This document shows, piece by piece, positions 1-11,816 of a DNA stretch of 11,816 nt (the stretch's first letter is position 1; every line of letters starts with the position of its first letter). Under the pieces are notes generated by a model that was given only the letters and a program-made list of their open reading frames with translations, did no database searches and was not told the DNA's origin. The translations under genes were made by a program, and so were the position numbers. Source of the DNA: Synechococcales cyanobacterium PMM_0073 (GTDB lineage Bacteria; Cyanobacteriota; Cyanobacteriia; Elainellales; Elainellaceae); NCBI GenBank assembly GCA_949127695.1, contig CASBQH010000181.1, positions 1-11,816 of the forward strand, in the 5' to 3' direction.

Positions 1-152
1 ATCATCCAACGGGGCAGAGCGATTTTCTGGGGATCTCGATAAACCGCTCTGTCAAGCAAATAGGCGCACCTGCTATCGAACAGACCTCTATCGGATGAAT
101 CTTTCGCTGGCTGTCTCTTAACGTATAAATTGTGCATAGAGTGTGGCTACGA

Positions 153-174
153 TACTTCGATTATTATAGAAGTA
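153..174. promoter_or_regulatory. Inverted-repeat operator candidate upstream of the antitoxin gene
   Basis: Perfect 6-bp arms TACTTC (153-158) and GAAGTA (169-174) flank a 10-nt AT-rich spacer, GATTATTATA. The spacer contains TATTAT (162-167), a plausible -10 element, and the repeat ends 19 nt before the antitoxin ATG. Phd/YefM-type antitoxins commonly repress their own promoter by binding palindromes over the -10 or -35 region, so the position fits an autoregulatory operator. No good -35 match is visible. The repeat is seen directly; its function is inferred. Confidence 0.45.
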
Positions 175-193
175 ACCGTTTAAGAGGTTAGAT

Positions 194-418
194 ATGCAAC
201 AGGTCGATATCATGGCGGCTCAATCTCAAATCACGCAACTTCTAGAGTCTGCGCTGCGAGGCGAAGAAATCATCATCACCCGCGATAATCAACCTATTCT
301 GAAGCTGATTCAGGTGTCACCAATTGCCAAACGACGACGCGGCAGCGCCAAAGGGCAGATTTGGATAGCACCTGACTTTGATCAACCCCTCGAAGATTTT
401 AGAGAGTATACAGACTGA
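194..418 (+). CDS. Type II toxin-antitoxin antitoxin, Phd/YefM-like, without an adjacent toxin
   Basis: This 74-residue protein has the Phd/YefM layout: an N-terminal segment (about residues 1-45) with the pattern LLESALRGEEIIITRDNQPILKL, in which a helix is followed by the strand-turn 'ITR(D)..P'. That part should form the DNA-binding dimer. The C-terminal tail (about 50-74), with GQIWIAPDFDQPLEDF, resembles the toxin-binding tail of VapB-type partners of PIN-domain toxins. The family neutralises a toxin and represses its own promoter. GAGG at 184-187 lies 6 nt before the ATG at 194, which favours this start over the in-frame ATG at 212. Normally the toxin gene overlaps or follows within a few bases. 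Here the next 260 bases hold no reading frame resembling a PIN, RelE or Doc toxin, on either strand. It may be an orphan antitoxin, a remnant after toxin loss, or a solitary regulator. Family call fairly sure; role uncertain. Confidence 0.75.
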   Translation: MQQVDIMAAQSQITQLLESALRGEEIIITRDNQPILKLIQVSPIAKRRRGSAKGQIWIAPDFDQPLEDFREYTD

Positions 419-422
419 ACCG

Positions 423-443
423 CTATGCACTAAAAGTGCATAG
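423..443. repeat. Stem-loop, 9-bp arms (copy 1 of the TGCACT/AGTGCA hairpin)
   Basis: CTATGCACT (423-431) and AGTGCATAG (435-443) are perfect inverted arms around an AAA loop. It begins 5 nt after the antitoxin stop codon. There is no following T-run, so it is not a classical intrinsic terminator, although it could slow transcription or protect an RNA 3' end. A near-identical hairpin recurs at 598-614. Confidence 0.7.
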
Positions 444-452
444 GTTCCTGTG

Positions 453-467
453 TGGGCTAAAAGCCCA
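453..467. repeat. Stem-loop, 6-bp arms with the same AAA loop
   Basis: TGGGCT (453-458) and AGCCCA (462-467) pair around AAA. The stem differs in sequence from its neighbour at 423-443, but the loop context CT-AAA-AG is identical, suggesting a shared structural design or origin. No T-run follows. Confidence 0.55.
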
Positions 468-597
468 AGTGAACTCGTTCTTGCATGGCGCACTGAGTCG
501 TCAATCTGCTCCCTTTTCGTTTCATCGGTGATCCCATAATTTTCCGTTTAGCTGGCTGACTTCGTTGCTGGCGGAAACTGTGTAGCAGCTAAAGCCT

Positions 598-614
598 TGC
601 ACTAAAGTGCATAG
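598..614. repeat. Stem-loop, second copy of the TGCACT/AGTGCA hairpin
   Basis: TGCACT (598-603) and AGTGCA (606-611) pair around AA, followed by TAG. Over 598-614 the sequence TGCACTAAAGTGCATAG equals 426-443 apart from one missing A, so the two form a direct repeat about 172 bp apart. The last eight bases, GTGCATAG, also occur at 132-139. The stretch 444-597 between the two copies shows no gene; the whole of 419-684 is otherwise unassigned. Confidence 0.6.
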
Positions 615-684
615 TTTCGACTAGCGTGCTGGGACAATGAAGGAGTTATTTCTTGTCTCCTTCTACTATTTTCGATTAAGTCTA

Positions 685-1578
685 ATGCCACCCCTCCAGC
701 GCCTTACCCCAATCGAGATTCAGCAATGGGCAGAGCAGGCTCAAGCCCAAACCCAAGGGGTAGTTCTCAACCGAATTGCGCCCTTGGCTCAGGCCAATCC
801 CTGCTGGTTTGGCGTCCAAATTTGTGGTGAGGCCAACTTGAGCTACGGTGACGTGGCCTGTCATTTTCCACTGATGAGCGTGATCAAGCCGTTTTTGCTC
901 CTGTATTTGCTTGACTATCACGGACAAGAGGCAGTCTCGCAGTGGGTGGGCAGAGAGCCTTCTAACTTACCGTTCAACTCACTCCAACAGCTCTTAGCCG
1001 ATCACGGCTATCCGCGCAACCCAATGATTAACAGCGGCGCAATCACGCTCGCCGACAAGCTGCCTGGAGAATCGGCTACCGAGCGCTGCGCCAACCTCTG
1101 CGACTGGCTGAATCAACAAGCCCAAACTCAGCTCAGCCTAGATGAAACTACGCTCACCGCCGTGCGTCAGAGCAACCGCGATCCCAACCGTAGCCTGCTG
1201 GATTGCCTTGCAATTTCTGGAGCCGTGACTAGCCCAGAGCTAACGCTAGATACCTACGAGCAGATCTGCTGTCTGGCAGGGCAGGTGCATGACTTGGCCA
1301 AGCTGGGGCTGCTGCTGTCGCTCGATCGGCCTATAGCGACTCAGCACCGAGATGCTGTGACTGCCGTGATGCTCAGCTGCGGCCTCTATGAAGCTTCGAG
1401 TTGGTATGCTCAGCAGATTGGCCTGCCGATGAAGTCGGGTGTGAGTGGGGCAGTGCTGGCCGTAATTCCACAGCAAGGCGCGGTCGCCTGCTACAGTCCG
1501 GCCTTGGATGCCACGGGTAATTCGGTAGCCAGTCTCAAATGGCTGGAAGCGCTGGCGGAATTCTTGCGGCGAGATTAA
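685..1578 (+). CDS. glsA: Glutaminase (serine-type, beta-lactamase fold)
   Basis: Hydrolyses L-glutamine to glutamate and ammonia in the cytoplasm. The frame opens at ATG 637 (313 aa), but the 16 extra residues (MKELFLVSFYYFRLSL) do not look like the family N-terminus. The ATG at 685 gives 297 aa starting MPPLQRLTPIEIQQW, so I chose 685; neither start has a good ribosome site. In 313-residue numbering the nucleophile motif is S81-V-I-K84 followed by P-F, as in the human S-C-V-K-P-L. The substrate motif NPMINSGAI is at 128-136, the tyrosine equivalents are in YEQICCL (207) and GLYEAS (250), and KSGVSG is at 266-271. Family knowledge puts a Glu and an Asn in the QSE...RN segment; here it reads QSNRDPNRS (178-186), so the Glu aligns with Asn180 and two residues appear deleted. 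The gene ends 32 bp before the convergent methyltransferase gene. Family assignment is firm; activity on glutamine is likely but untested for this variant. Confidence 0.9.
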   Translation: MPPLQRLTPIEIQQWAEQAQAQTQGVVLNRIAPLAQANPCWFGVQICGEANLSYGDVACHFPLMSVIKPFLLLYLLDYHGQEAVSQWVGREPSNLPFNSLQQLLADHGYPRNPMINSGAITLADKLPGESATERCANLCDWLNQQAQTQLSLDETTLTAVRQSNRDPNRSLLDCLAISGAVTSPELTLDTYEQICCLAGQVHDLAKLGLLLSLDRPIATQHRDAVTAVMLSCGLYEASSWYAQQIGLPMKSGVSGAVLAVIPQQGAVACYSPALDATGNSVASLKWLEALAEFLRRD

Positions 1579-1610
1579 GCTTTTTCAGTCTGGGATTCAA
1601 TGTATCAGGT

Positions 1611-3008
1611 TCAGCTAATCAGGCTCAAAAACGCCGCCATTTCCACATGCGCCGTCTGCGGGAAAAAATCGGCAGGCTGGACAAGCCTGAGCTGATAAGA
1701 CTGGCTCAGCAGCTTCAGGTCACGCGCCAGCGTCGCTGGATTGCAGCTGACATAGACAATCTGCTGAGGGCGCTGCCGCAGCAAGGTTTCAATTACCTGG
1801 GCATCGCAGCCTTTGCGGGGCGGATCGAGCAGGACAATATTCGGCTGTACCGTCAGCTGGGGTAACAGCAGTTCGACTTTGCCAGTCTGAAACTCAACGT
1901 TGGTAATGTTGTTAATCTGCGCGTTCACCTGAGCCTGCTCTATTGATTCTCGATGGCTTTCGAGTCCAATACAATGCTTGACTCTTCCTGCCAGCGGTAG
2001 CGTCATCGTGCCCACGCCACAGTAGGCATCCACCAAAACTTCGTCGCCCTGTAAATTCAGCTCTGCGCCAATCCGCTCCACCAGCGCTTCGGCCTGCTCT
2101 GTATTCACCTGAAAAAACGTAGTTGGCTGAATCTGAAACTCTAGTCCGGCAAAGCGTTCGCTTAAGTAGCCGCGTCCGGCAATCGTCCGGGTTTCAGAGC
2201 CAAAAATGATGTTGCTGCGCTCCGGATTAATATTCAGACAGACGCCCACCAAGTCAGGGTAGCGCTCCAGCCATTTCTGAGCATGTTGCTCGATTTTGGG
2301 CAGATTGCTGCTGCGTGCCACAATCGTCAGCAGCACCTCGCCCGTCTGTCGGCCAATTCGCAGGCTCAGATGCCGCACTTCGCCTTTGTGCGTCGCCTCA
2401 TCATAGACCTGCCAATGCTGCTTCTGAATATCTAGCTTGATCCGCGTCAAGTAGGGGTTCAGCCGCGCATCTTGGATCGGGCATTGGTTGAGGTTAATCA
2501 AAAAATGGCTGCTTTTTTGGTAATAGCCCGCCTGCACCGCCCCGTCCTGCCCCAGCTTCACCGGATAGCTAGACTTGTTGCGATAGGCCAGCGGCTCTGC
2601 GGCCAGGATTGGCGCGACTATCTGCTCTACTCCAGGCTGCGCGAAGCCGCCAATGCGCTCCAGGCTTTGCACCACCAGGTTTCGCTTCATCTCCAGCTGG
2701 TAGGCATAGTCGATATGCTGCCACTGACAGCCGCCGCATTTGTCGGCCACAATGCAGGCAGGCCGCACTCGATATTCAGAGGACTGAATCAGCTGATGCA
2801 GCTTGCCCTGAGCATACTGCGGCTTTACCCGCACCAAGCGCGCCCAGATCTGATCTCCAGGCACTGTATCGGGCACAAACACGACGCGCCCCTGCCAGCG
2901 CCCCACGCCTTCGCCGCTGTGGTTCAGGTCATCAATGGTCAGCTCTAGCAGCTTGCCCTGCTGCCAGTCCGCCGGATTGCGGCTAATCTCTGCTGTTTCT
3001 AACTCCAT
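1611..3008 (-). CDS. rlmD: 23S rRNA (uracil-5)-methyltransferase, TrmA/RumA family
   Basis: An S-adenosylmethionine-dependent enzyme that makes 5-methyluridine in 23S rRNA (U1939 in E. coli for RlmD; some relatives modify U747 or both). Domains in order: TRAM RNA-binding domain (about 15-75); iron-sulfur cysteines C85, C91, C94 (CGGCQWQH) and C176 (NQCPIQD); the central insert; then the Rossmann methyltransferase domain. Motifs visible: FFQVN (298-302), VDAYCGVGTM for SAM binding (326-335), LDPPRKG (394-400), SCNP with catalytic Cys422, and the general base in HVE (Glu456). Length 465 aa is normal for the family. The ATG at 3008 is supported by GAGGAG (reverse complement of 3014-3019) 5 nt upstream. 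It is divergent from tlyA across 80 bp, so both rRNA methyltransferase genes share a promoter region. Position specificity cannot be told from sequence alone. Confidence 0.92.
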   Translation of the reverse strand: MELETAEISRNPADWQQGKLLELTIDDLNHSGEGVGRWQGRVVFVPDTVPGDQIWARLVRVKPQYAQGKLHQLIQSSEYRVRPACIVADKCGGCQWQHIDYAYQLEMKRNLVVQSLERIGGFAQPGVEQIVAPILAAEPLAYRNKSSYPVKLGQDGAVQAGYYQKSSHFLINLNQCPIQDARLNPYLTRIKLDIQKQHWQVYDEATHKGEVRHLSLRIGRQTGEVLLTIVARSSNLPKIEQHAQKWLERYPDLVGVCLNINPERSNIIFGSETRTIAGRGYLSERFAGLEFQIQPTTFFQVNTEQAEALVERIGAELNLQGDEVLVDAYCGVGTMTLPLAGRVKHCIGLESHRESIEQAQVNAQINNITNVEFQTGKVELLLPQLTVQPNIVLLDPPRKGCDAQVIETLLRQRPQQIVYVSCNPATLARDLKLLSQSYQLRLVQPADFFPQTAHVEMAAFLSLIS

Positions 3009-3013
3009 TGCTG

Positions 3014-3019
3014 CTCCTC
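3014..3019 (-). promoter_or_regulatory. Shine-Dalgarno of the rRNA uracil methyltransferase gene
   Basis: Read on the minus strand this is GAGGAG, ending 5 nt before the ATG at 3008. It fixes that start. Confidence 0.7.
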
Positions 3020-3088
3020 GCCATTGCCCTCTCTAACATAGTAGGATTTCGGTATAGCCGCCTCGTTCACGAAATCACTTAGCCCACT

Positions 3089-3910
3089 TTGCCCAAACAG
3101 CGTCTCGATACTTTGCTCGTTGATCGCCAGCTCTGCGACTCTCGCCAGCAGGCACAGCGGCTGATTCAAGCGGGCGAAGTCAAGGTCAACCAGCAGGTGA
3201 TTGACAAACCAGGTACTGAAGTTGATCTGGCGGCGGTGCTAGAGGTGAAAGCTCGTGCGCCCTATGTATCGCGGGGTGGCGAAAAGCTAGCCAAAGCGCT
3301 GAGCGAATTTGAGATTGAGGTGAAAGGCCGGATCTGTCTAGATGGCGGCATTTCTACCGGCGGCTTCACCGACTGCCTGCTGCAAGCCGGAGCCAGACTG
3401 GTCTACGGCATTGATGTCGGCTATGGCCAAGTGGCCTGGAGCCTGCGCCAAGACGAGCGGCTGATCCTCAAAGAGCGCACCAATATTCGGCATTTACAGC
3501 CAGCAGATCTGTATGTTGACCCCGATCAGCCGCGCCCTGATTTTAGCGTTATGGATCTCTCGTTTATTTCGCTTACCAAAGTTTTGCCTGCCCTCTGGAA
3601 TTTGCTGCTGCCGCCCCAAGAATGCCTGCTGCTAGTCAAGCCGCAGTTTGAGGTCGGGCGCGAGAAAGTAGGCAAAAAGGGCGTAGTGCGCGACAGCAAA
3701 GACCAGGCGGCGGCGATTTACCAGGTCTGGCAGGCTGCTCAAGCGCTGGGCTGGGGATTGAGCGGCCTCACCTGGTCGCCGCTGCTCGGCCCTGCCGGAA
3801 ATATCGAATACTTGCTCTGGCTAAAAGCGGCGAGTGGGTCTGCTGAGAACTTCGATCTGGCTGCGGCAGAGCGGCTGACGCAGCAGGCTCAACAGACCCT
3901 GGTTCGCTAG
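3089..3910 (+). CDS. tlyA: TlyA-family rRNA cytidine-2'-O-methyltransferase (TTG start)
   Basis: TlyA proteins join an S4 RNA-binding domain to an FtsJ/RrmJ-like 2'-O-methyltransferase; in mycobacteria and relatives they methylate cytidines in 16S and/or 23S rRNA. Residues 1-60 form the S4 domain (KQRLDTLLVDRQLCDSRQQA...). RGGEKLAKAL (62-71) carries the first catalytic Lys; LDGGISTGGFTD (84-95) is the SAM loop; GIDVGYGQ (107-114), MDLSFISL (155-162, Asp156) and LVKPQFEVG (182-190, Lys184 and Glu188) complete a KDKE-type site; GKKGVVRD (195-202) is a family hallmark. The start is TTG: an in-frame TAG at 3080-3082 lies just upstream, no ATG is available, and the S4 domain begins at once. There is no clear Shine-Dalgarno. 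The 3' end overlaps the convergent SPOR gene by 4 nt at a shared CTAG. Some homologues are annotated as haemolysins, an old label I would not use. Exact rRNA target unknown. Confidence 0.9.
   Translation: MPKQRLDTLLVDRQLCDSRQQAQRLIQAGEVKVNQQVIDKPGTEVDLAAVLEVKARAPYVSRGGEKLAKALSEFEIEVKGRICLDGGISTGGFTDCLLQAGARLVYGIDVGYGQVAWSLRQDERLILKERTNIRHLQPADLYVDPDQPRPDFSVMDLSFISLTKVLPALWNLLLPPQECLLLVKPQFEVGREKVGKKGVVRDSKDQAAAIYQVWQAAQALGWGLSGLTWSPLLGPAGNIEYLLWLKAASGSAENFDLAAAERLTQQAQQTLVR
3907..3910. other. Shared CTAG: stop codons of two convergent genes
   Basis: The palindrome CTAG supplies TAG on the plus strand (3908-3910, end of tlyA) and TAG on the minus strand (3909-3907, end of the SPOR gene). No room is left for a separate terminator, so each transcript must run into the other gene's 3' end. 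The same arrangement recurs at 9451-9454. Confidence 0.9.
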
Positions 3911-4701
3911 CTGCCGTAGGTGACTCGCGCATCCATGCCAAAGTCGCGGAAGTAGCTCGTCCAGCGGTTGGCAGCATCGCGGCTGTTGAATGGGCCAACC
4001 TGCACATGCGCCCCTCGCCGGGTATCTGTGGCAATCATGCCGTCTACGCCCATGCCGCTGGTGAGTCGCGTTACCTGCTCAGAGAGCGTATCCAGCTTTT
4101 TGCCATTGCTGGGGATCACCACGTAGTAAGACCGACCATTTGAGTCAGCGCTTGAGCCAGGAGCCGGAGGCGCAGCGTTAAACTCAACGCTGCTGGGGCC
4201 AGATTGCCCTGATGGCATGACCGTTGTGGGCAGTGGCTCAGCGGGCGGAAATGCCGACGAGTTAGGGTCAGCCTGACTCACTGCCTGAGCGCCGGGGCTA
4301 GTCACTGCCACCACCTGTGCGCCAATGCCAGCGTTCGCTAAAGCATCCACCTGCTGCTGAGCGCTAGTGGCGTCACTGTAAAGCCCTGCCTGAATAAACC
4401 GCTGCCCGCTATATTCCTGCACCGAGGCTGTCGGCTGCACGGCCTGCACCTGAGAGAGCAAAATCTGGCTGTCGCCGTTGACCACAACCAAATATTGCTG
4501 CGCCTGACTCACAGCGGCTTGACCAAAGGCGGGCGGCGGCGGCAGGCCGTCTGTAATTTGCTGTGCCAGCAAAAAGTGCTGCGTATCGTTGAGCAGGGGT
4601 CTTGCCCAGGCAGAAGGCGCGATTGCCATCAGCCAACCGCCGCAGGCCAGAATTGCCGCCAGCCGCCGACCGGAGATTCGCAGGGTAGAAAGATCGATCA
4701 C
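3907..4701 (-). CDS. Exported protein with two SPOR-like repeats
   Basis: A 264-residue protein that should be secreted to the periplasm. Residues 11-33 form a signal peptide (GRRLAAILACGGWLMAIAPSA) with a likely cleavage after AWA (about 33). Two related repeats follow. Repeat 1 (about 69-133) runs YLVVVNG...FIQAGLYSDATSAQQQ...GIGAQVVAV. Repeat 2 (about 192-262) runs YYVVIPSNG...HVQVGPFNSRDAANR...GMDARVTYG. The shared pattern, Y-V-V then (I/V)Q(A/V)G.(Y/F).S..A......(G).(.)A.V, matches SPOR domains, which bind denuded glycan strands of peptidoglycan at division sites. A low-complexity Pro/Ser/Gln linker (about 135-190) separates them. The start is GTG at 4701, backed by GGAGGT 6 nt upstream. 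The 3' end overlaps tlyA. A glycan-binding or cell-envelope role is inferred; the repeats are divergent and a profile search is needed to confirm them. Confidence 0.8.
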   Translation of the reverse strand: MIDLSTLRISGRRLAAILACGGWLMAIAPSAWARPLLNDTQHFLLAQQITDGLPPPPAFGQAAVSQAQQYLVVVNGDSQILLSQVQAVQPTASVQEYSGQRFIQAGLYSDATSAQQQVDALANAGIGAQVVAVTSPGAQAVSQADPNSSAFPPAEPLPTTVMPSGQSGPSSVEFNAAPPAPGSSADSNGRSYYVVIPSNGKKLDTLSEQVTRLTSGMGVDGMIATDTRRGAHVQVGPFNSRDAANRWTSYFRDFGMDARVTYGS

Positions 4702-4707
4702 GGGTTT

Positions 4708-4713
4708 ACCTCC
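4708..4713 (-). promoter_or_regulatory. Shine-Dalgarno of the SPOR-repeat gene
   Basis: On the minus strand this reads GGAGGT, ending 6 nt before the GTG at 4701. It decides in favour of this non-ATG start, which also preserves the whole signal peptide. Confidence 0.75.
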
Positions 4714-4720
4714 GCTACAG

Positions 4721-4899
4721 ATAGCGTTAACAAAGAATTTTTTATCTAAATGGCGCTAATCGTAACATAGGTTCTCAATAGCGGATCAGCTTTTTTGAGT
4801 TTCTGCCAAGATTGGGCGCAGGCCGCCACAGGCCGATTTATCTGGTAAGTGATAGCCTAGAAATAGCTTTTTGTAAAGCAGCTTTTTAAATAGCGTTAA
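4721..4899. repeat. Direct repeat ATAGCGTTAA bracketing a divergent intergenic region
   Basis: The 10-mer ATAGCGTTAA occurs at 4721-4730, just upstream of the SPOR gene, and at 4890-4899, just upstream of mnmA, in the same orientation. The 209-bp region between the two divergent starts also has AGCTTTTT at 4788-4795, 4865-4872 and 4880-4887, the last two spaced by 15 bp. Promoters for both genes must lie here, but I could not pick a convincing -35/-10 pair. Function of the repeats is unknown. Confidence 0.35.
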
Positions 4900-4910
4900 A
4901 GCAGCAGTTG

Positions 4911-5975
4911 ATGAACAAGGTTGTAGTCGGGCTTTCGGGCGGAGTGGACAGTTCAGTGGCGGCGGCGGCTTTGCACCGTCAGGGCTACGCGGTCGAAGGG
5001 CTGACGCTCTGGCTGATGAAGGGCAAAGGCCAATGCTGCTCTGAAGGCATGGCGGATGCGGCGCGCCTCTGCGAAGAGCTAGAAATCCCGTATCACGTCG
5101 TCGATACCCGCGAGCTGTTTGAAAAAAACATCGTGAATTACCTGGTAACGGGCTACAGCGCGGGCATCACGCCCCTGCCCTGCTCGCAGTGCAACAAGGC
5201 CGTCAAGTTCGGACCCATGCTGCAATATGCCCGCGAGCAGCTCGGCATTGACCAAATTGCCACTGGACATTATGCCCGCATCACTCAAAATCCCGAAACT
5301 GGGCGATACGAGCTGCGCCGCGCCATGGACGCGAACAAAGACCAGTCTTACTTCCTCTACGATCTAGAGCAAGATATTTTGGCGCATACGCTGTTTCCGC
5401 TGGGCGACCAGCCCAAAACCGAAACCCGGCGAATGGCCAGCGAGTTTGGCCTGCATACCGCCGAAAAGCCGGAAAGTCAGGATCTTTGCCTGATTGAAGC
5501 GCATGGCTCTATGCGGAGCTTTCTGGAGAAATACCTGACGCCGCAGCCCGGTCAAATTGTCGATCCAGCGGGTCAGGTGCTGGGGCAGCATGACGGCATC
5601 CACAACTATACAATTGGTCAGCGTAAGGGCATTGGCATTGCGGCAGATCGCCCGCTCTACGTGATTGGCATCGACGCAGGCAAAAACCAGGTGATTGTCG
5701 GCGACCGCAGTGCCGCGCAGACACCAGAATTTACCGTGGCGCGGGTCAACTGGGTTTCGATGGCCGAGCCGCAAGCCCCCATTCGGGCTGAAATGCAGAT
5801 CCGCTATCGCTCGCAGCCCGAAGCTGCCACCATTATTCCGCTGCCGGAAGATCGGGTGAAGGTGGTGTTTGACGAGCCGCAGCTCAGCGTCACGCCGGGT
5901 CAGGCCGCAGTCTGGTATCGGGGCGATTTGCTGCTGGGCGGCGGCGTGATTGAGCGCGATCTTGAACCTGAGTGA
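4911..5975 (+). CDS. mnmA: tRNA-specific 2-thiouridylase MnmA
   Basis: MnmA adenylates and thiolates C2 of the wobble uridine (U34) in tRNAs for Lys, Glu and Gln, taking sulfur from a persulfide delivered by a sulfur-relay chain or a cysteine desulfurase. Numbering from ATG 4911 (354 aa): the ATP PP-loop GLSGGVDSS is at 7-15; the first catalytic Cys is C94 ([12 protein letters not shown]); ATGHYARI at 117-124 and DQSYFL at 144-149 are conserved; the second catalytic Cys is C193 ([10 protein letters not shown]); GQRKGIGIA lies in the C-terminal half, followed by a beta-barrel domain. [11 protein letters not shown] (37-47) is a segment familiar from cyanobacterial MnmA. A TTG directly precedes the ATG (4908), but homologues begin at M-N-K-V, so ATG is preferred; no strong ribosome site is visible. 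Its stop is followed at once by a 12-bp palindrome. Identification is firm. Confidence 0.96.
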
Positions 5976-5986
5976 AGCTTAAGCTT
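5975..5986. repeat. 12-bp palindrome after the mnmA stop
   Basis: AAGCTTAAGCTT is its own reverse complement and starts on the last base of the mnmA stop codon. It is short and AT-rich and lacks a T-run, so it is unlikely to terminate alone. It might be a chance palindrome or a protein-binding site. Confidence 0.35.
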
Positions 5987-6083
5987 GAGCGAGAAGAAGA
6001 TTCAGAGCAGCCCAATAAATTCAGGGCAATTGGGCAGCGGGGTTCTGATAGGATGATCTCGAAATCTGAAGAGTTGAGAGTCT

Positions 6084-7256
6084 ATGAGTCATCATCCAGA
6101 CAATATCGCCCCGCATGGGGGCAGCCTGATCAACCGCGTCTGTACCCCAGACCAGAAGGCCGAATTTCTCGACCAGGCCGACCAACTGCCCCGGCTCACC
6201 CTGGATGAGCGCGCCCTCTCCGATCTCCAGCTGATCGCCATCGGCGGCTTCAGCCCCCTCACCGGATTCCTTGGACAGGCCGACTACCAGGCCGTTGTAG
6301 ACTCCATGCATCTGGCGAACGGCCTGCCCTGGTCAATCCCCGTTACCCTGCCCGTCAGCGCCGAAACTGCCCAGCCGCTCAAGCTCGGCAGCAACATCCG
6401 CCTGGATGATCCGGCTGGCCGCTTTGTGGGCGTGCTGCACCTGAGCGAGAAGTACAGCTACGACAAGCTGCATGAAGCGCTGCAAGTCTACCGTACCAAC
6501 GAAGATAAGCATCCCGGCGTCAAAGTCCTCTATGCTCAGAGCGAGATCAACCTCGCAGGCGAGATCTGGCTGCTGGAGCGCGATCCGCATCCTTTCTTCC
6601 CCGCCTACCAAATTGACCCGATCGACTCCCGCGCCCTGTTCCGCGACAAAGGCTGGAAAACCATCGTCGGCTTCCAGACTCGCAACCCGATTCACCGGGC
6701 GCATGAGTATATTCAAAAATGCGCCTTAGAAACCGTAGATGGGCTGTTTCTGCATCCCTTAGTGGGTGCCACCAAGTCAGACGATATCCCAGCCGACGTG
6801 CGGATGCGCTGCTACGAGATTTTGATTGAAAAATATTACCCAATGAACCGGATCGCGCTGGCCATCAACCCAGCTGCGATGCGCTATGCCGGCCCCAGAG
6901 AGGCGATTTTCCATGCGCTGCTCCGCAAAAACTACGGCTGCACGCATTTCATTGTCGGGCGCGATCATGCGGGCGTGGGCGACTACTACGGCACCTATGA
7001 CGCGCAGTATATATTTGATGAGTTTGATCCAGGTGCACTCGGTATCACGCCGATGATGTTTGAACATGCGTTTTACTGCAAGCGCACGGGGCAGATGGCG
7101 ACGAGCAAGACCAGTCCGAGCTTGCCAGAAGAGCGGGTGCATCTATCTGGGACGAAGGTGCGAGAGATGCTGCGCCGAGGCGAACTGCCGCCGCCGGAGT
7201 TTTCACGGCCAGAGGTGGCAGCTGAGCTGGCTAGAGCGGCGCAAATTCCAGTCTAG
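6084..7256 (+). CDS. sat: Sulfate adenylyltransferase (ATP sulfurylase), single-chain type
   Basis: Catalyses ATP + sulfate to adenosine 5'-phosphosulfate + pyrophosphate, the first step of sulfate assimilation, in the cytoplasm. It is the homo-oligomeric Sat/Met3 type and not the CysD/CysN GTPase pair. The 390 aa cover the PUA-like N-terminal domain (about 1-170) and the catalytic domain. Motifs: [11 protein letters not shown] (198-208), holding the sulfate/ATP-binding residues; [13 protein letters not shown] (262-274); [12 protein letters not shown] (292-303); and [17 protein letters not shown] (354-370). No C-terminal APS kinase domain is present, so PAPS synthesis needs a separate CysC. 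The start [13 protein letters not shown] fits homologues; the upstream GAGAG (6076-6080) is only a weak ribosome site. The 108-bp gap to mnmA holds no other gene. The stop codon sits at the centre of a 24-bp palindrome. Confidence 0.96.
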
Positions 7257-7273
7257 ACTGGAATTTCTGCGCC
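7238..7273. terminator. Large hairpin centred on the sat stop codon
   Basis: Positions 7243-7266 form a perfect 24-bp palindrome (half-site AAATTCCAGTCT). Outside it, GGCGC (7238-7242) can pair with GCGCC (7269-7273) across a 2-nt bulge, so the full stem could reach 17 bp with a 2-4 nt tip. The TAG stop (7254-7256) lies at the tip. The only following AT-rich run is TAAAATAT, so this is not a classic U-tract terminator, but it could act as an attenuator, an RNA-stability element for sat mRNA or a symmetric protein-binding site. The next gene starts 13 nt downstream. Structure is seen directly; function is inferred. Confidence 0.55.
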
Positions 7274-7285
7274 TAAAATATCAGC

Positions 7286-9454
7286 ATGGCACTCAAGCGA
7301 CGAGCTTTTCTACAGCGAGCGGGCATCTTCGCCACACTGGGATTCAGTGAGGCCAGCTTTGGGCTACTCAGTCAGCGCTATCAGCAGGCGCTGGCTCAGC
7401 CGACCGGTCGCAAGCTGGCCTTGCTAGTTGGAATTAACCAATATCCTGAATCGGTCTGTGACTATCCGCCGCAAGGCTCGGCGCTGAGCGGCTGCCTCAC
7501 GGACGTAGAGCTGCAATATGAGCTGCTGCTGAACCGCTTTGGCTTTGCGCCTGCCGATATTCGCCTTTTAACCAATCAGGCTGCCACTCGTGAAGCCATC
7601 GAAACCAGTTTTCTAGAGCATTTAGTCGAGCAAGCTGCCCCCGGTGACTTGGTGCTGTTCCATTTCAGCGGCTTGGGGAGCCAAGTGCAGATCGAAGGCA
7701 GGCAGCAAAATAGCCTAGTCCCAGTTGACGGCCAGCTCCCGACCGCCGATCAGCCTCTGGTGCAGGACATCATGCAGGAGACGCTGGCGCTGCTGCTGCA
7801 AAGCCTGCCCACGCGACAGGTGATCACGCTACTAGATGCAGGATTCAGCCGTCTGGGGCGGACTACGCAGGGCAACTTGAGGATTCGCTCTCGGCCTAGC
7901 GCCCCAGTGGGAGCGATCGCTGAGTCGGAGCTAGCGTTGCAGGATCGCCTGCGCCGTCAGCTGCCAAAGGCACAGCGGAGCCAGCCGCCGGGACTGCTGC
8001 TGAACGCAGGCACCAACAGTCAGCTTGTGGCTGAAGCACAGTGGGATGGCTTCAGCGCTGGGCTGTTTACCTACGCGCTAACGCAGCAGCTTTGGGGCGA
8101 TGCGTCGCTGAGCGTCAGCTTCACGCAAGCCGCCGCGCTGGTTCAGCGGCAGACAGGAGCCCAGCAGCAGCCCCTTGCCACTGGCCAAATGCTGTCAATT
8201 GGCAGGGCTGAACCCAAAGCAGCAGGCGTGATTCGGCATATTGAACCCGACGGCAAGCTCGACCTCTGGCTGGCTGGACTGCCCGCCGCCGTGCTGGAAA
8301 CCCAGACTGGCTCGCTGTTTGCCGCAGAGCTGGCCACAGAGGCAGAGCCAGTGTTGATTCAGCTTCGCAGTTGGACAGGGCTAGCGGTGACTGCCCGCAG
8401 CCTTTCGCCAGTGGTGCTGCGCCCCGGTCAGCTGCTGCGCGAACTGCTGCGAATTCTGCCGCGAGATCTGCGGCTGACGGTGGGGCTTGATCCGGAGCTA
8501 GAGCGAATTGAGCGGGTAGATGCCACCAGCGCCTTTGCCGCGATTCCTCGCATTACGGCAGTGGCTACGGGCGAGGCCAGCGATCTGCTGTTTGGCAAGC
8601 CCAAATTGCCGCTGCTAGCCGCATCTCTACCCAGGCCGTCGAGTGCAGCACCTGACGCAGCGATTCTAGATCCGCCTGCCGCACCGCTTTTGAAGGGCGG
8701 CTATGGCTTGTTTTATCCCGGCCATGACGCGGTTCCCAGCACGCTCAACCCCACAGCAGAGGCCGTCAAAACTGCCGTGGCTCGCTTAAAGCCGCAGCTG
8801 AAAACGCTCTTGGCCATCAAGCTGTTGCGAATCACCCAAAACGCCAGCTCTCAGCTCCAGGTGCAGGCCAAGCTGAAGCTGGTTTCGCCTGAAGCTAAGC
8901 CTGTTTTTCAGCAGGGAACTCTGCCGATTCAGCCTTCACAATCTGGCTCTGATCCACTCTCTCCGCCCGTTCTGCCTGCGGGTGGCCAGATTCAGTATCT
9001 TCTGGAAAACGCTGGAGATCGCCCGGTCTATTTCTTGCTGATTGGCCTCAACGCGAATGGCAATCCCGTGCTGTTCTACCCGGCCAATCCGCTCATTGCG
9101 GCGGGTGATAGCATTGCTGTGCCGTCGGTCAACGGCGCGAGAAACGGCGGCGGCTGGCTGCTGCAAACTGCGACGGGGCTGGCCGAAACCCATGTGCTCT
9201 TTAGCATTGCCCCCTTCACCCAAACCTCCCAGCTGTTGGCCGCATCGCCTCAGTTTGAAATTGATCAACTGCTGGCGCTCACAAATCCGCTAGCCGTGGT
9301 GGAAGCAATTCTGGCAGATCTACATCAGGCTAGCGCCGAAGGCAATGCCAAGCTGCCCGTTGAGGTTCCGGCAGATAGCTATGCGCTGGATATCAACGCC
9401 TGGGCGAGCTTCAGCTTTTTGTATCAGGTGGCGCTCCAGTCGCCCGTTGGCTAG
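7286..9454 (+). CDS. Caspase-fold (peptidase C14) pseudoenzyme with Tat signal and DUF4384-like C-terminus
   Basis: A 722-residue protein related to bacterial orthocaspases. Residues 3-26 (LKRRAFLQRAGIFATLGF...) look like a twin-arginine signal, implying export in folded form. The caspase p20-like domain runs from about 41 to 275: LALLVGINQYP (44-54), LSGCLTDVE (67-75) and GLFTYAL (259-265) are hallmark segments. The catalytic His motif, normally SGHG, is FSGLGSQ (127-133), so His is Leu130. The catalytic Cys motif, normally D-x-C-H-S-G, is LLDAGFSR (182-189), so Cys is Gly186. Both dyad residues are gone in an otherwise intact 2.2-kb frame, suggesting a selected non-catalytic role. About 300-530 is unassigned. 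About 560-680 resembles DUF4384 (PVYFLLIGLNANGNPVLFYPAN). No ribosome site is clear; ATG 7286 is kept because the Tat motif follows at once. The 3' end overlaps the DUF58 gene by 4 nt. One HIP1-like GCGATCGC lies at 7913-7920. Fold assignment is firm; function unknown. Confidence 0.85.
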   Translation: MALKRRAFLQRAGIFATLGFSEASFGLLSQRYQQALAQPTGRKLALLVGINQYPESVCDYPPQGSALSGCLTDVELQYELLLNRFGFAPADIRLLTNQAATREAIETSFLEHLVEQAAPGDLVLFHFSGLGSQVQIEGRQQNSLVPVDGQLPTADQPLVQDIMQETLALLLQSLPTRQVITLLDAGFSRLGRTTQGNLRIRSRPSAPVGAIAESELALQDRLRRQLPKAQRSQPPGLLLNAGTNSQLVAEAQWDGFSAGLFTYALTQQLWGDASLSVSFTQAAALVQRQTGAQQQPLATGQMLSIGRAEPKAAGVIRHIEPDGKLDLWLAGLPAAVLETQTGSLFAAELATEAEPVLIQLRSWTGLAVTARSLSPVVLRPGQLLRELLRILPRDLRLTVGLDPELERIERVDATSAFAAIPRITAVATGEASDLLFGKPKLPLLAASLPRPSSAAPDAAILDPPAAPLLKGGYGLFYPGHDAVPSTLNPTAEAVKTAVARLKPQLKTLLAIKLLRITQNASSQLQVQAKLKLVSPEAKPVFQQGTLPIQPSQSGSDPLSPPVLPAGGQIQYLLENAGDRPVYFLLIGLNANGNPVLFYPANPLIAAGDSIAVPSVNGARNGGGWLLQTATGLAETHVLFSIAPFTQTSQLLAASPQFEIDQLLALTNPLAVVEAILADLHQASAEGNAKLPVEVPADSYALDINAWASFSFLYQVALQSPVG
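9451..9454. other. Second shared CTAG: stop codons of two convergent genes
   Basis: CTAG gives TAG on the plus strand (9452-9454, caspase-fold gene) and TAG on the minus strand (9453-9451, DUF58 gene). This is the same 4-nt convergent overlap as at 3907-3910. Confidence 0.9.
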
Positions 9455-10773
9455 AGCTGGCTGCGTGCCTTGAGCTGAAGATAGCGCTCGACCAGCTGTT
9501 CGCCCAGCTGATCGGCGGGCGCATCGAGAATCAATACGCCCTTTTGTTTGAGGCTTTCCAGGGCAATCTGGCGCTGGCTGAGCAGATCGAGCGCGACAGC
9601 TCGCTGATAGCTGCGGTGGAGTTCTGGGGAGCTGCCTTGAGCTGGATCAGCCTGCCGTTCAATCTGCGGATCGCGCAGCGCCACACAAAACGGCAGATAG
9701 CGCGGCGTCAGGCGAGCCATGGCCGAGAGCAGCTCCGCTGAAGCCGTTTGGTCAATTACGTCAGTAATGAACACCACCAGCGCCCGTCGGGTTTGCTGCT
9801 GCGTAATCGCAGTCACCGCCGCCAAATAGTCAGGCTCTTGCAGGCTAGGCTGGAGCGGGGTGAGGCGTTCGATAATTTTGGAGAGCTGGTTTTGGCCACG
9901 TTCGGGCGGAATCCAGGTATGCAGCAATCGATCAAACACGCCGACGCCGACCCGATCGCCCCGGTTTAGCCCAGCCAGCGTGAGCGACAGCGCCGCGTTC
10001 ATCCCCCAGTCAAACCGGGCGAGTCCCTGCACCTGCGCCGTCATCAGCCTGCCGCTGTCCAGCAGCAAAATCAGGGTCTGCTCACGCTCTGGCTCCAGTA
10101 CCCGCAGCAGCAATCGGCTGCGCCGCGAGGTGGCCTTCCAGTCAATTAGGCGGCTGTCGTCGCCGACGCTATATTCTCGCAGCTCGGCAAATTCGGTGCC
10201 CATGCCCAGCCGCTGCGCTCGCTTCAGGCTGCCCGTATTTTGCAGCGCTAGCCGAATTGACAGCGCTTTGAGTCCGACCAAATCGGGGTAAACTGCTGCC
10301 GACTGCGCTTGCGGCACTGACCAACTACGCCAAGCCAGCCCCCAAGCGCCGAGCTGCCGCAGCCTTATTGCCCCAAAGCTATAGTCGCCGCGCTGACTCG
10401 GAAACACCTGATAAGTGAGCGTTTCGGTCGCGTTGGCCGGGAGCGTTATCTCAAGCCGCTGAGGCATGGCGCTGAAGGCTTGCGGAAATTCGTCGTGGAT
10501 TTGCAACAATGCCGTTCTGGTTTGCGAGCCAGCTTGCAGCTTTAGCTCCACCGGATTGCCGCGTCCAATTGAGAGCCGCTCTAGCGCCGATCGCTTGACG
10601 GTAATTTGCTGAGGCTGCACCCGCCAGCCGTCTATGAGCAGCAGCAGCAAAATCACGCCATCCCAGGCCAGCATTCCCAGCAAAGCATTAGACTGTTGAA
10701 GAGCAGCCTGAGCGAAGATTGCGCCGCCCAAACCGAGCAGCAGCAGTAGATAAACGCGACGAGTCGGCAGCAT
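9451..10773 (-). CDS. DUF58 membrane protein with von Willebrand factor A-like domain
   Basis: This 440-residue protein has two N-terminal membrane segments (about 6-23 and 30-47), an extracytoplasmic-type beta domain (about 55-165), and a cytoplasmic C-terminal part. The DUF58 signature is clear at 191-217: GTEFAELREYSVGDD then RLIDWKATSRR. The vWA-like domain begins at LILLLDSGRLM (234-244); the MIDAS-type motif is D-S-G-R instead of the classical D-x-S-x-S, a variant I believe occurs in this family. A second acidic position is in VVFITDVID (333-341). DUF58 proteins usually sit beside a MoxR-type AAA+ ATPase and transglutaminase-like genes and are thought to assist complex assembly or metal insertion; no such partner is in this window. 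The ATG at 10773 gives a natural start before the first membrane segment. Family call firm, role unknown. Confidence 0.88.
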   Translation of the reverse strand: MLPTRRVYLLLLLGLGGAIFAQAALQQSNALLGMLAWDGVILLLLLIDGWRVQPQQITVKRSALERLSIGRGNPVELKLQAGSQTRTALLQIHDEFPQAFSAMPQRLEITLPANATETLTYQVFPSQRGDYSFGAIRLRQLGAWGLAWRSWSVPQAQSAAVYPDLVGLKALSIRLALQNTGSLKRAQRLGMGTEFAELREYSVGDDSRLIDWKATSRRSRLLLRVLEPEREQTLILLLDSGRLMTAQVQGLARFDWGMNAALSLTLAGLNRGDRVGVGVFDRLLHTWIPPERGQNQLSKIIERLTPLQPSLQEPDYLAAVTAITQQQTRRALVVFITDVIDQTASAELLSAMARLTPRYLPFCVALRDPQIERQADPAQGSSPELHRSYQRAVALDLLSQRQIALESLKQKGVLILDAPADQLGEQLVERYLQLKARSQL

Positions 10774-10790
10774 ATGATCGGTAGCAGCGG

Positions 10791-10810
10791 TACTTTACGA
10801 CTTACTTTAC
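10791..10810. repeat. Direct repeat TACTTTAC in a divergent promoter region
   Basis: TACTTTAC occurs at 10791-10798 and 10803-10810, 12 bp from start to start, roughly one helical turn. The pair lies in the 81-bp gap between the DUF58 gene (minus) and the phosphatase gene (plus). Spacing suits a regulator dimer bound to one face of the DNA. Low evidence beyond the repeat itself. Confidence 0.35.
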
Positions 10811-10843
10811 AAGGCCATAAGCTGAGTTGACCAACCAGAATTC

Positions 10844-10848
10844 AGGAG
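10844..10848 (+). promoter_or_regulatory. Shine-Dalgarno of the phosphatase gene
   Basis: AGGAG ends 6 nt before the GTG at 10855, which supports GTG as the start codon of the phosphatase. Confidence 0.75.
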
Positions 10849-10854
10849 AAGCCT

Positions 10855-11481
10855 GTGCGATCAGAACCAGAGCCAGCAGAACAGGCTGATTTGAGCGAGC
10901 TTAAATGCGATCTGCCCTTGTTTACTTCCAGCAGTGCCCCGATTCGGGTCGATTTTCTGCCAGAGATCGCCGCCCATTTTCCGGGTCGCTTAGGCATGAC
11001 GATTGCGCCGGGAAAATGCAACTTGGGAATGCAGGCCGTCTGGCAGCGGCAGCTCGCGCCAGACCTAGAGCGACTGCGCCAGCATTACCAAACCGATCTG
11101 CTGGTGACGCTGGTGCAGGCTCATGAGCTAAAAGAGCTAGAGATTCCCGATCTGTTTGAGCAGGTGCAGGCTCACGGAATGCAGAGCTGCTGGTTCCCGA
11201 TTCAGGACTTCAGCACCCCTGATTCAATGGCGGGGCTGCAAGCGCTGGTGGAGCAGATTTTGGCGGCTTTGGCTGCGGGGCAAACGGTGGTGGTTCACTG
11301 CAAAGGCGGACTGGGGCGCTCTGGATTGGTGGCAGCAGCTTGCTTGGTGGCGCTGGGCTACTCGCCAGAAGCGGCTTTCGTCGCCGTACGGCAAGCGCGA
11401 CCAGGCAGCGTCGAAACCCTGGCGCAAGAAGCCTATGTGGTCGAGTTTGCGCGGCAGTGGCAGGCGGCTAGCGACTGCTAG
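10855..11481 (+). CDS. Dual-specificity/tyrosine-type protein phosphatase (CX5R)
   Basis: A 208-residue cysteine-based phosphatase. Residues 44-60 (GRLGMTIAPGKCN...) are the conserved entry segment of a bacterial DSP-like subfamily, followed by LERLRQHYQTDLLVTLVQAHEL (71-92). The general acid is likely Asp118 in PIQDFSTPD. The signature loop VVHCKGGLGRSG (146-157) contains nucleophile Cys149 and Arg155, with Ser156 completing the loop. The C-terminal helices follow, including ARPGSVETLAQEAYV (181-195), where the RPG..E segment is usual. All catalytic residues are present, so it is probably active, but the substrate (phosphotyrosine, phosphoserine, or a small molecule) is unknown. The GTG start is backed by AGGAG. 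No membrane segment or signal peptide is seen, so it should be cytoplasmic. It is divergent from the DUF58 gene; no cognate kinase is in the window. Confidence 0.9.
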   Translation: MRSEPEPAEQADLSELKCDLPLFTSSSAPIRVDFLPEIAAHFPGRLGMTIAPGKCNLGMQAVWQRQLAPDLERLRQHYQTDLLVTLVQAHELKELEIPDLFEQVQAHGMQSCWFPIQDFSTPDSMAGLQALVEQILAALAAGQTVVVHCKGGLGRSGLVAAACLVALGYSPEAAFVAVRQARPGSVETLAQEAYVVEFARQWQAASDC

Positions 11482-11534
11482 CGAGTTCTTGACTCAGCAG
11501 CTCGTGGCTTGCTGATCGAAACACCTAGGCAAGC

Positions 11535-11614
11535 TTCAGCTTCCGGCGTTGCTGAATGCAGGGATGAATTCGCCCCCAGCTCCCAATTCATAGCCCTATG
11601 GGCTACCCTGCGGG
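11535..11614. repeat. Chain of small stem-loops in the gap before the second caspase-fold gene
   Basis: Four adjacent inverted repeats: TTCAGC/GCTGAA (11535-11540, 11551-11556), ATGAATT/AATTCAT (11564-11570, 11585-11591), TAGCCC/GGGCTA (11591-11596, 11600-11605), and CCC/GGG around TGC (11606-11614). The segment GGCGTTGCTGAAT (11545-11557) reminds me of insertion-sequence termini, but no transposase or matching opposite end is visible. The remainder of the 257-bp gap (11482-11738) holds no gene that I can see. It could be a dispersed repeat, a structured leader RNA or a remnant. Confidence 0.4.
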
Positions 11615-11738
11615 AAGCAAGCAACAAGAAAGGGGGATCTCCGTTTCGCAGCCTCAATATTTAACGCCCTATGTAGTTTTCAAGCTACCGTAATGCTTAA
11701 GCTCTCCCAAGTCGTAGTCCTGTTCTCTGGGTTCAAGC

Positions 11739-11816
11739 ATGAAGCGATATGCCTTGGTTGTTGGTATCGGCGAATATGGCGAATATAGCGCTCTCAGCTC
11801 ATTATCTAAGCCTGCG
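11739..11816 (+). CDS. N-terminus of a second caspase-fold protein (cut by the window end)
   Basis: Twenty-six codons are open from ATG 11739 to the last base; an in-frame TAG at 11715-11717 shows nothing real lies upstream. The peptide starts MKRYALVVGIGEYGEYS and continues to LSSLSKPA. This matches the first strand and loop of caspase/peptidase C14 domains, where (K/R)-x-A-L-(V/L)-V-G-I-x-x-Y is followed by L-x-x-L-x-x-(P)-A-x-D-A. Compare LALLVGINQYP in the gene at 7286. It lacks a signal peptide, so unlike its neighbour it is likely cytoplasmic. In cyanobacteria such N-terminal caspase domains are often fused to other modules, which cannot be seen here, nor can the catalytic residues. No strong ribosome site is present. 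Confidence 0.7.
   Translation, partial: MKRYALVVGIGEYGEYSALSSLSKPA

Follow-up and report, generated by a model that had tools for sequence, protein, structure and literature searches.

The DNA analysed here, an 11,816-nucleotide stretch of Synechococcales cyanobacterium PMM_0073 (contig CASBQH010000181.1, positions 1 to 11,816 of the forward strand; hereafter the window), carries a gene for a pseudo-orthocaspase, a caspase-fold protein in which both residues of the catalytic His-Cys (HC) dyad are replaced and which starts with a signal of the twin-arginine translocation (Tat) type. Judged from its sequence, the protein is best read as an exported, non-proteolytic housekeeping binding protein. 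Specifically, it is probably a Tat-linked pseudo-orthocaspase of the Tyr-Ser (YS) type, placed in a clade with Leu at the catalytic His position, that would serve a housekeeping role as an exported adaptor or retention factor holding a basic segment. A core function, and a site that binds instead of cutting, is favoured because the protein is probably exported and has lost the dyad, because one pseudo-orthocaspase per genome was found among the sequences fetched from 50 genomes, and because the gene is retained where photosystem II (both photosystems in four genomes) and all other caspase-fold genes are missing.

The gene and its domains lie as follows.
7286..9454, + strand: Tat pseudo-orthocaspase gene, 722 amino acids, open frame from ATG to stop.
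7286..7402, + strand: Tat-type signal peptide, residues 1-39, KRRAFLQ ... ALA.
7409..8200, + strand: caspase-fold domain, residues 42-305.
8219..8458, + strand: small beta-barrel domain, approximately residues 312-391, similar to the N-terminal barrel of F1-ATPase beta.
8957..9229, + strand: DUF4384-like region, residues about 558-648, located via the positions in relatives.
A preliminary description of this DNA had proposed an intact 722-codon frame, a Tat signal and a DUF4384-like tail. The frame indeed has zero internal stops, and the N-terminus reads MALKRRAFLQ...ALA-QP, a Tat-like motif. The tail can be recognized through relatives: PF14326 (DUF4384) gives no match in the window protein at E 0.1, the curated cut-off not being reached, and matches the equivalent C-terminal part in all ten relatives, picked because they already bore a precomputed PF14326 label (six above the 27-bit curated cut-off, four below). 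The Peptidase_C14 profile (PF00656) matches residues 42-302 with E 2.3e-16, so the caspase fold is not a chance assignment, and the AlphaFold2 model has a predicted local distance difference test score (pLDDT) of 88.3. The export features are family-wide, since 129 of 130 pseudo-orthocaspase sequences contain RRx[FLW] and 125 have [AVS]xA ahead of the mature part. These 130 sequences (pseudo rows) comprise 50 genome rows and 80 named loci and represent 119 distinct sequences, eleven occurring in both sets.

The replaced dyad is located at two codons.
7673..7675, + strand: Leu130 at the catalytic His position, within FHFSGLGSQ, placed by alignments.
7841..7843, + strand: Gly186 at the catalytic Cys position, within LLDAGFS, placed by alignments.
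Active orthocaspases are recognized by their His-Cys dyad, and the alignments confirm that the window protein has lost both residues, as the preliminary description stated. Relatives were taken from two protein searches, of which the best 120 of 2115 and the best 120 of 2757 matches were listed. Among the matches listed, none of the 121 nearest proteins (window protein included) has His at the His column, where Leu occurs in 100, Phe in 14, Tyr in 6 and Met in 1; orthologues mostly keeping His and Cys, which would have marked a one-off loss, were thus not found. The Cys column of the same proteins holds Gly in 60, Ser in 56, Cys in 4 and Ala in 1. Of the two positions, Leu130 is therefore conserved at the level of the clade and Gly186 is not. 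The dyads of the 80 named loci are YS 48, CS 9, FS 6, LS 5, YG 4, LG 3, YC 2, CG 1, KS 1 and SS 1, and the family as a whole has mainly YS, LG, LS, CS, YG and FS, with His retained in 2 of the 130 pseudo rows (HG) and Cys in 3 (YC). The literal Tyr-Ser dyad is not present in the window protein, whose clade sits among YS and YG rows on the tree. The Leu/Gly pair had been thought undescribed; LG already appears among 16 rarer pseudo-dyads given in 2021 for 473 orthocaspases of cyanobacteria (PMC8283722).

Several variants were observed at these columns. A protein 98% identical to that of the window (P0002) reads DAGCS, with Cys at the position of Phe187, beside the Gly186 column. Ten rows from Microcoleus, Tychonema, Aliterella and one Oscillatoriales bin (L087, L089, L091, L093, L094, L096, L097, L112, L119 and L126) have Cys at the catalytic His position (SGCG), partnered at the Cys position by Ser in nine and Gly in one. 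The two HG rows, L069 and L071, suggest that Cys was perhaps lost before His.

The gene is under purifying selection. Specifically, the ratio of nonsynonymous to synonymous substitution rates (dN/dS) against the nearest relative with DNA (78% identical) is 0.156, with 0.104 in the p20 part and 0.21 in the C-terminal part, and the likelihood ratio against neutrality for this pair is 296. Seven other pairs gave values of 0.078-0.201. The earlier view of a conserved exported pseudoprotease is thereby supported as regards conservation, caspase fold, absence of the dyad and selection, while export is probable. A family match at 1e-25 was found in 152 genomes from an even draw of 195. For comparison we used the Tat-borne paralogues that keep the HC dyad: 18 rows among L045-L072, plus six further copies found in twelve additional stretches (G038, G027, G042, G054), which otherwise hold pieces or a re-read of pseudo genes; G038 has an HC copy plus a motif-bearing piece of a pseudo gene. 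In an unrooted 66-row tree from which the dyad columns were left out, all 18 catalytic HC paralogues group together (support 100), and a single branch, also with support 100 and without inference of the root, separates them from the pseudo rows. The rows with Leu, or within one subclade Phe, at the His column form one group of 29 (support 99). Another Leu row, L044, falls outside this group. Two rows split into two open reading frames (L019 and L028) were excluded from the trees and are counted among the 130. Within the pseudo rows the His column requires at least 5 changes (2 if Leu/Phe is set against all other residues) and the Cys column at least 11; the corresponding numbers in a larger but cruder 146-row tree are 14, 6 and 16. 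By these counts Leu appears to have replaced the commoner Tyr at the level of a clade, the change presumably having run from Tyr to Leu, whereas Gly, Ser and Ala exchange often.

Four further elements bear on the putative binding site.
7502..7504, + strand: Asp73, S1-pocket acid matched to Asp95 of TbMC2, invariant in 79 of 79.
7835..7837, + strand: Asp184, S1-pocket acid matched to Asp211 of TbMC2, invariant in 79 of 79.
7493..7495, + strand: Cys70, matched to Cys92 of TbMC2, Cys in 72 of 79.
8504..8524, + strand: RIERVDA motif, residues 407-413, a signature of the pseudo family.
Asp95 and Asp211 are among the S1-pocket residues of TbMC2 (PMC6426788), and we matched TbMC2 residues to the window protein from the residue list in that paper. 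A binding or scaffold role would fit the kept acidic S1 pocket. At residues 407-412, the pattern [RK][IVH]E[RK][VI]D occurs in all 130 pseudo rows (literally RIERVD in 121), in all 241 proteins among the matches listed by the two protein searches (window protein included) and in each of 14 further loci, while it is found in none of the 18 HC rows and none of the six later HC copies (0/24). Because a RIERVDA-like pattern had served to find some of the 80 named loci, their contribution to this count is biased; no such pattern was used to find the 50 genome rows or the listed proteins. Additionally, Trp706 is present in 126 of the 130 pseudo rows, a position held by Leu, Ile, Met or Val in all 18 HC rows. 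The invariant S1 aspartates and a RIERVDA-type motif that is present in the pseudo rows and never in the catalytic Tat paralogues are new observations, and a search of the literature available for this analysis found no mention of RIERVD.

The second of the protein searches also placed family members in Candidatus Atelocyanobacterium thalassa (UCYN-A) and in the cyanobacterium endosymbiont of Rhopalodia. In the genomes of two UCYN-A (G502, 1.49 Mb; G503, 1.44 Mb) and four rhopalodian endosymbionts (G445, G454, G488 and G531, 2.48-3.07 Mb of contigs), each of the six contains one intact copy with a YS dyad, an RR start and RIERVDATSA, which is the only PF00656 gene of the genome, and each contains TatC. 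UCYN-A has lost photosystem II (PSII), RuBisCO and the tricarboxylic acid cycle (PMC6315102), and the rhopalodian endosymbionts are described as being without photosystem I (PSI), PSII and carbon-fixation proteins (PMC12903740). Consistently, matches to the PSII reaction centre (PF00124) are missing from four of the six genomes and reduced to short fragments, most with stops, in two, as opposed to six open matches in the free-living relative G433. As for PsaA/PsaB (PF00223), it is intact in both UCYN-A genomes and in G433, whereas G454 and G488 retain broken pieces, most of them interrupted by stops, and G445 and G531 have none. These photosystem remnants, most of which contain several stops, lie in G445 and G488 for PF00124 and in G454 and G488 for PF00223. 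For the pseudo-orthocaspase gene itself, dN/dS is 0.094 in the UCYN-A pair and ranges over 0.143-0.190 among the four rhopalodian endosymbionts. That members without photosynthesis keep the gene intact as their only caspase-fold gene is new; keyword searches within three orthocaspase papers found no passage on UCYN-A or rhopalodian symbionts, and five papers contain both UCYN-A and a single mention of caspase.

In the mechanism we propose, Tat would carry the folded pseudo-orthocaspase into the periplasm or the thylakoid lumen, where the dead caspase groove would hold a partner by a basic (Arg/Lys) segment and leave that segment uncut. The half of the protein that contains RIERVDA, the beta-barrel and the DUF4384-like region may make a second contact. 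The protein would thus be an envelope adaptor or retention factor with a housekeeping function, rather than one in photosynthesis or in the control of caspases.

The gene neighbourhood raises a different possibility, a role in sulfur metabolism alongside ATP sulfurylase, for instance as an exported factor of sulfate or sulfur status.
6084..7256, + strand: sat, ATP sulfurylase, directly upstream of the pseudo-orthocaspase gene with a 29-bp gap.
4908..5975, + strand: mnmA, tRNA 2-thiouridylase, upstream of sat.
For a class-wide count we used the best 120 matches from the 195 genomes, 105 of which have both genes placed. Among these matches listed, sat lies directly upstream on the same strand, with a gap of 16-2038 bp, in 65 of the 105 genomes and nearby in the opposite orientation in none; some of the remaining 40 may have an HC copy as best match. 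It lies beside none of 21 second copies, of which a part was dyad-checked. Where a fetched locus extends 600 bp or more upstream of the gene, sat stands beside 83 of 121 pseudo genes, a count that includes repeats (eleven sequences occur twice), and beside none of 18 HC genes. By a simple estimate, chance would give well under one case of such adjacency, given thousands of genes per genome. ATP-sulfurylase operons in Cyanobacteria were mentioned in 2012 (PMC3501461), and a link to sulfur and sat was proposed in 2016 for one Nodularia gene (PMC4933709); in the accessible parts of both papers the link is noted without being tied to the pseudo family, and this tie is new here.

A sulfur role would accord with this linkage, with the sat gene adjoining in both UCYN-A genomes, with the Nodularia proposal and with mnmA adjoining sat. 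Against it, sat is unlinked in the other 40 genomes, and all four rhopalodian endosymbionts keep the gene while their sat is located elsewhere and is divergent. Moreover, ATP sulfurylase is a cytosolic enzyme, whereas the pseudo-orthocaspase is predicted to be exported. We regard this role as unlikely, and the linkage would reflect co-expression with sulfate activation and not a shared reaction. In the four rhopalodian genomes, the one sat detected per genome is 57-58% identical to that of the window, versus 74% in G433, as if it had been replaced or were evolving fast. As for mnmA, it was found in 34 of the 148 loci searched, many with short flanks. In two of them (L007, 395-1501; L033, 2706-3763) it abuts the pseudo-orthocaspase gene without an adjacent sat, which looks as though an mnmA-sat-pseudo-orthocaspase row had lost its middle gene. 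On the other side, a DUF58/VWA gene (9451-10773, - strand) converges on the end of the pseudo-orthocaspase gene with a 4-bp overlap; DUF58 lies near the gene in 6 of the 148 loci, the window's own included, many being short-flanked.

We consider it very unlikely that the protein has kept an enzymatic activity, whether through a different residue pair such as His126/Cys70 or in a non-proteolytic reaction. His126 is present in 128 and Cys70 in 116 of the 130 pseudo rows; both are common in the HC paralogues as well (18 of 18 and 15 of 18) and so look structural. Furthermore, Cys70 is missing in 14 of the 130 pseudo rows, and three guessed Synechocystis relatives (L201-L203) have Ala at the position of His126.

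The preliminary description had also suggested a regulator of active caspases, that is, a decoy or dimer partner like c-FLIP or TbMC4. TbMC4, a pseudo-metacaspase, and c-FLIP(L) are likewise dead caspase folds with a function (PMC6426788), but they work with active caspases, whereas the window family persists without any other Peptidase_C14 gene. The genome of the window does have two HC caspase genes, and 16 of the 50 genomes that yielded a pseudo row also yielded a Tat-borne HC paralogue. Conversely, no such copy was found in the other 34 among the rows fetched, and the pseudo-orthocaspase is the sole Peptidase_C14 gene in the six endosymbionts and in both guessed Synechocystis genomes. In addition, the two HC proteins of the window's genome are without an RR signal and would not share its compartment. 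As a general role, caspase regulation is therefore very improbable.

No better placed is the prominent idea for cyanobacterial pseudo-orthocaspases, a role in photosynthesis or thylakoid biogenesis (PMC6426788). It draws on the wide presence in cyanobacteria (152 of the 195 genomes), on absence from Gloeobacter and on published light-regulated expression (PMC6426788). The gene is nevertheless intact and under purifying selection in the two UCYN-A and four rhopalodian genomes, the latter with both photosystems absent or decayed. Its survival as the sole caspase-fold gene where PSII or both photosystems are lost argues against this hypothesis and against regulation of active caspases alike; with PsaA/PsaB intact in UCYN-A, a PSI-related role is possible there alone. 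Finally, a decaying active caspase, lost once in the window lineage, would account for the missing catalytic residues and the two relatives split into two frames, yet we reject it, in line with the non-decaying gene described earlier, since every near relative among the matches listed has the same kind of loss and dN/dS (0.16) is well under 1, with a likelihood ratio of 296 against neutrality.

Among known systems, the protein comes closest to the YS-type pseudo-orthocaspases of Klemencic et al. 2019 (PMC6426788), sharing the Tat-like RR...AxA, replacement of both p20 catalytic residues, acidic S1 residues and a long C-terminus, and differing in having Leu/Gly in place of Tyr/Ser. To the published type our analysis adds the C-terminal signature motif, the sat link and the non-photosynthetic members. 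SyOC (sll0148), the single pseudo-orthocaspase of Synechocystis PCC 6803 with a Tyr/Gly dyad (PMC7889975), probably belongs to the same family, orthology being judged from the guessed relatives L201-L203 in place of sll0148 itself; these carry Tyr/Gly, the RIERVDA motif and an RR start, and differ from the window gene in being without an adjacent sat. The SyOC knock-out survives H2O2 better and has raised DacB, a peptidoglycan protein (PMC7889975), which is consistent with an envelope link, though unstressed growth is normal. The Tat-borne HC paralogue shares the overall architecture and averages 39% identity with the window protein across p20, but it has an intact His/Cys pair, no RIERVDA motif (0/24) and no sat neighbour (0/18). 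Metacaspases AtMC4 and AtMC9 and Geobacter GSU0716 are also among the closest known systems, and the top Foldseek match is an engineered C147G mutant of AtMC9. Wild-type AtMC4 and AtMC9 are active proteases.

Several points weigh against an exported, non-proteolytic binding protein with a housekeeping role. The S1 acids Asp73 and Asp184 are kept in the HC paralogues too and may be inherited structure, and the presence of both His126 and Cys70 in the window copy makes residual chemistry possible there. Two deep family rows retain His with Gly for Cys, and 2 of the 50 genome rows (L019 and L028, from incomplete, fragmentary assemblies) are split. Linkage to sat is lacking in 40 of the 105 genomes, and no family match at 1e-25 was found in 43 of the 195, where the gene is missing or too distant. 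The deletion of SyOC gave no growth phenotype in normal medium (PMC7889975), which makes a weak case for "housekeeping".

Together, the observation made in the preliminary description stands and most of its reading is right; the evidence gained for the family as a whole is the more valuable part. Retention in the endosymbionts is a natural experiment that speaks against the photosynthesis idea and against caspase regulation. Concrete residues to mutate are those of the RIERVDA motif and both S1 aspartates, with Synechocystis as a knock-out host. Somewhat more tentatively than the assignment of the window protein itself, we suggest that in this family a caspase fold may have been turned to a new, non-proteolytic envelope function, kept as the last caspase-fold gene even in the nitrogen-fixing organelle UCYN-A and in diatom endosymbionts deprived of both photosystems, with a basic-ligand pocket and RIERVDA, in place of the former catalytic dyad, as its site.
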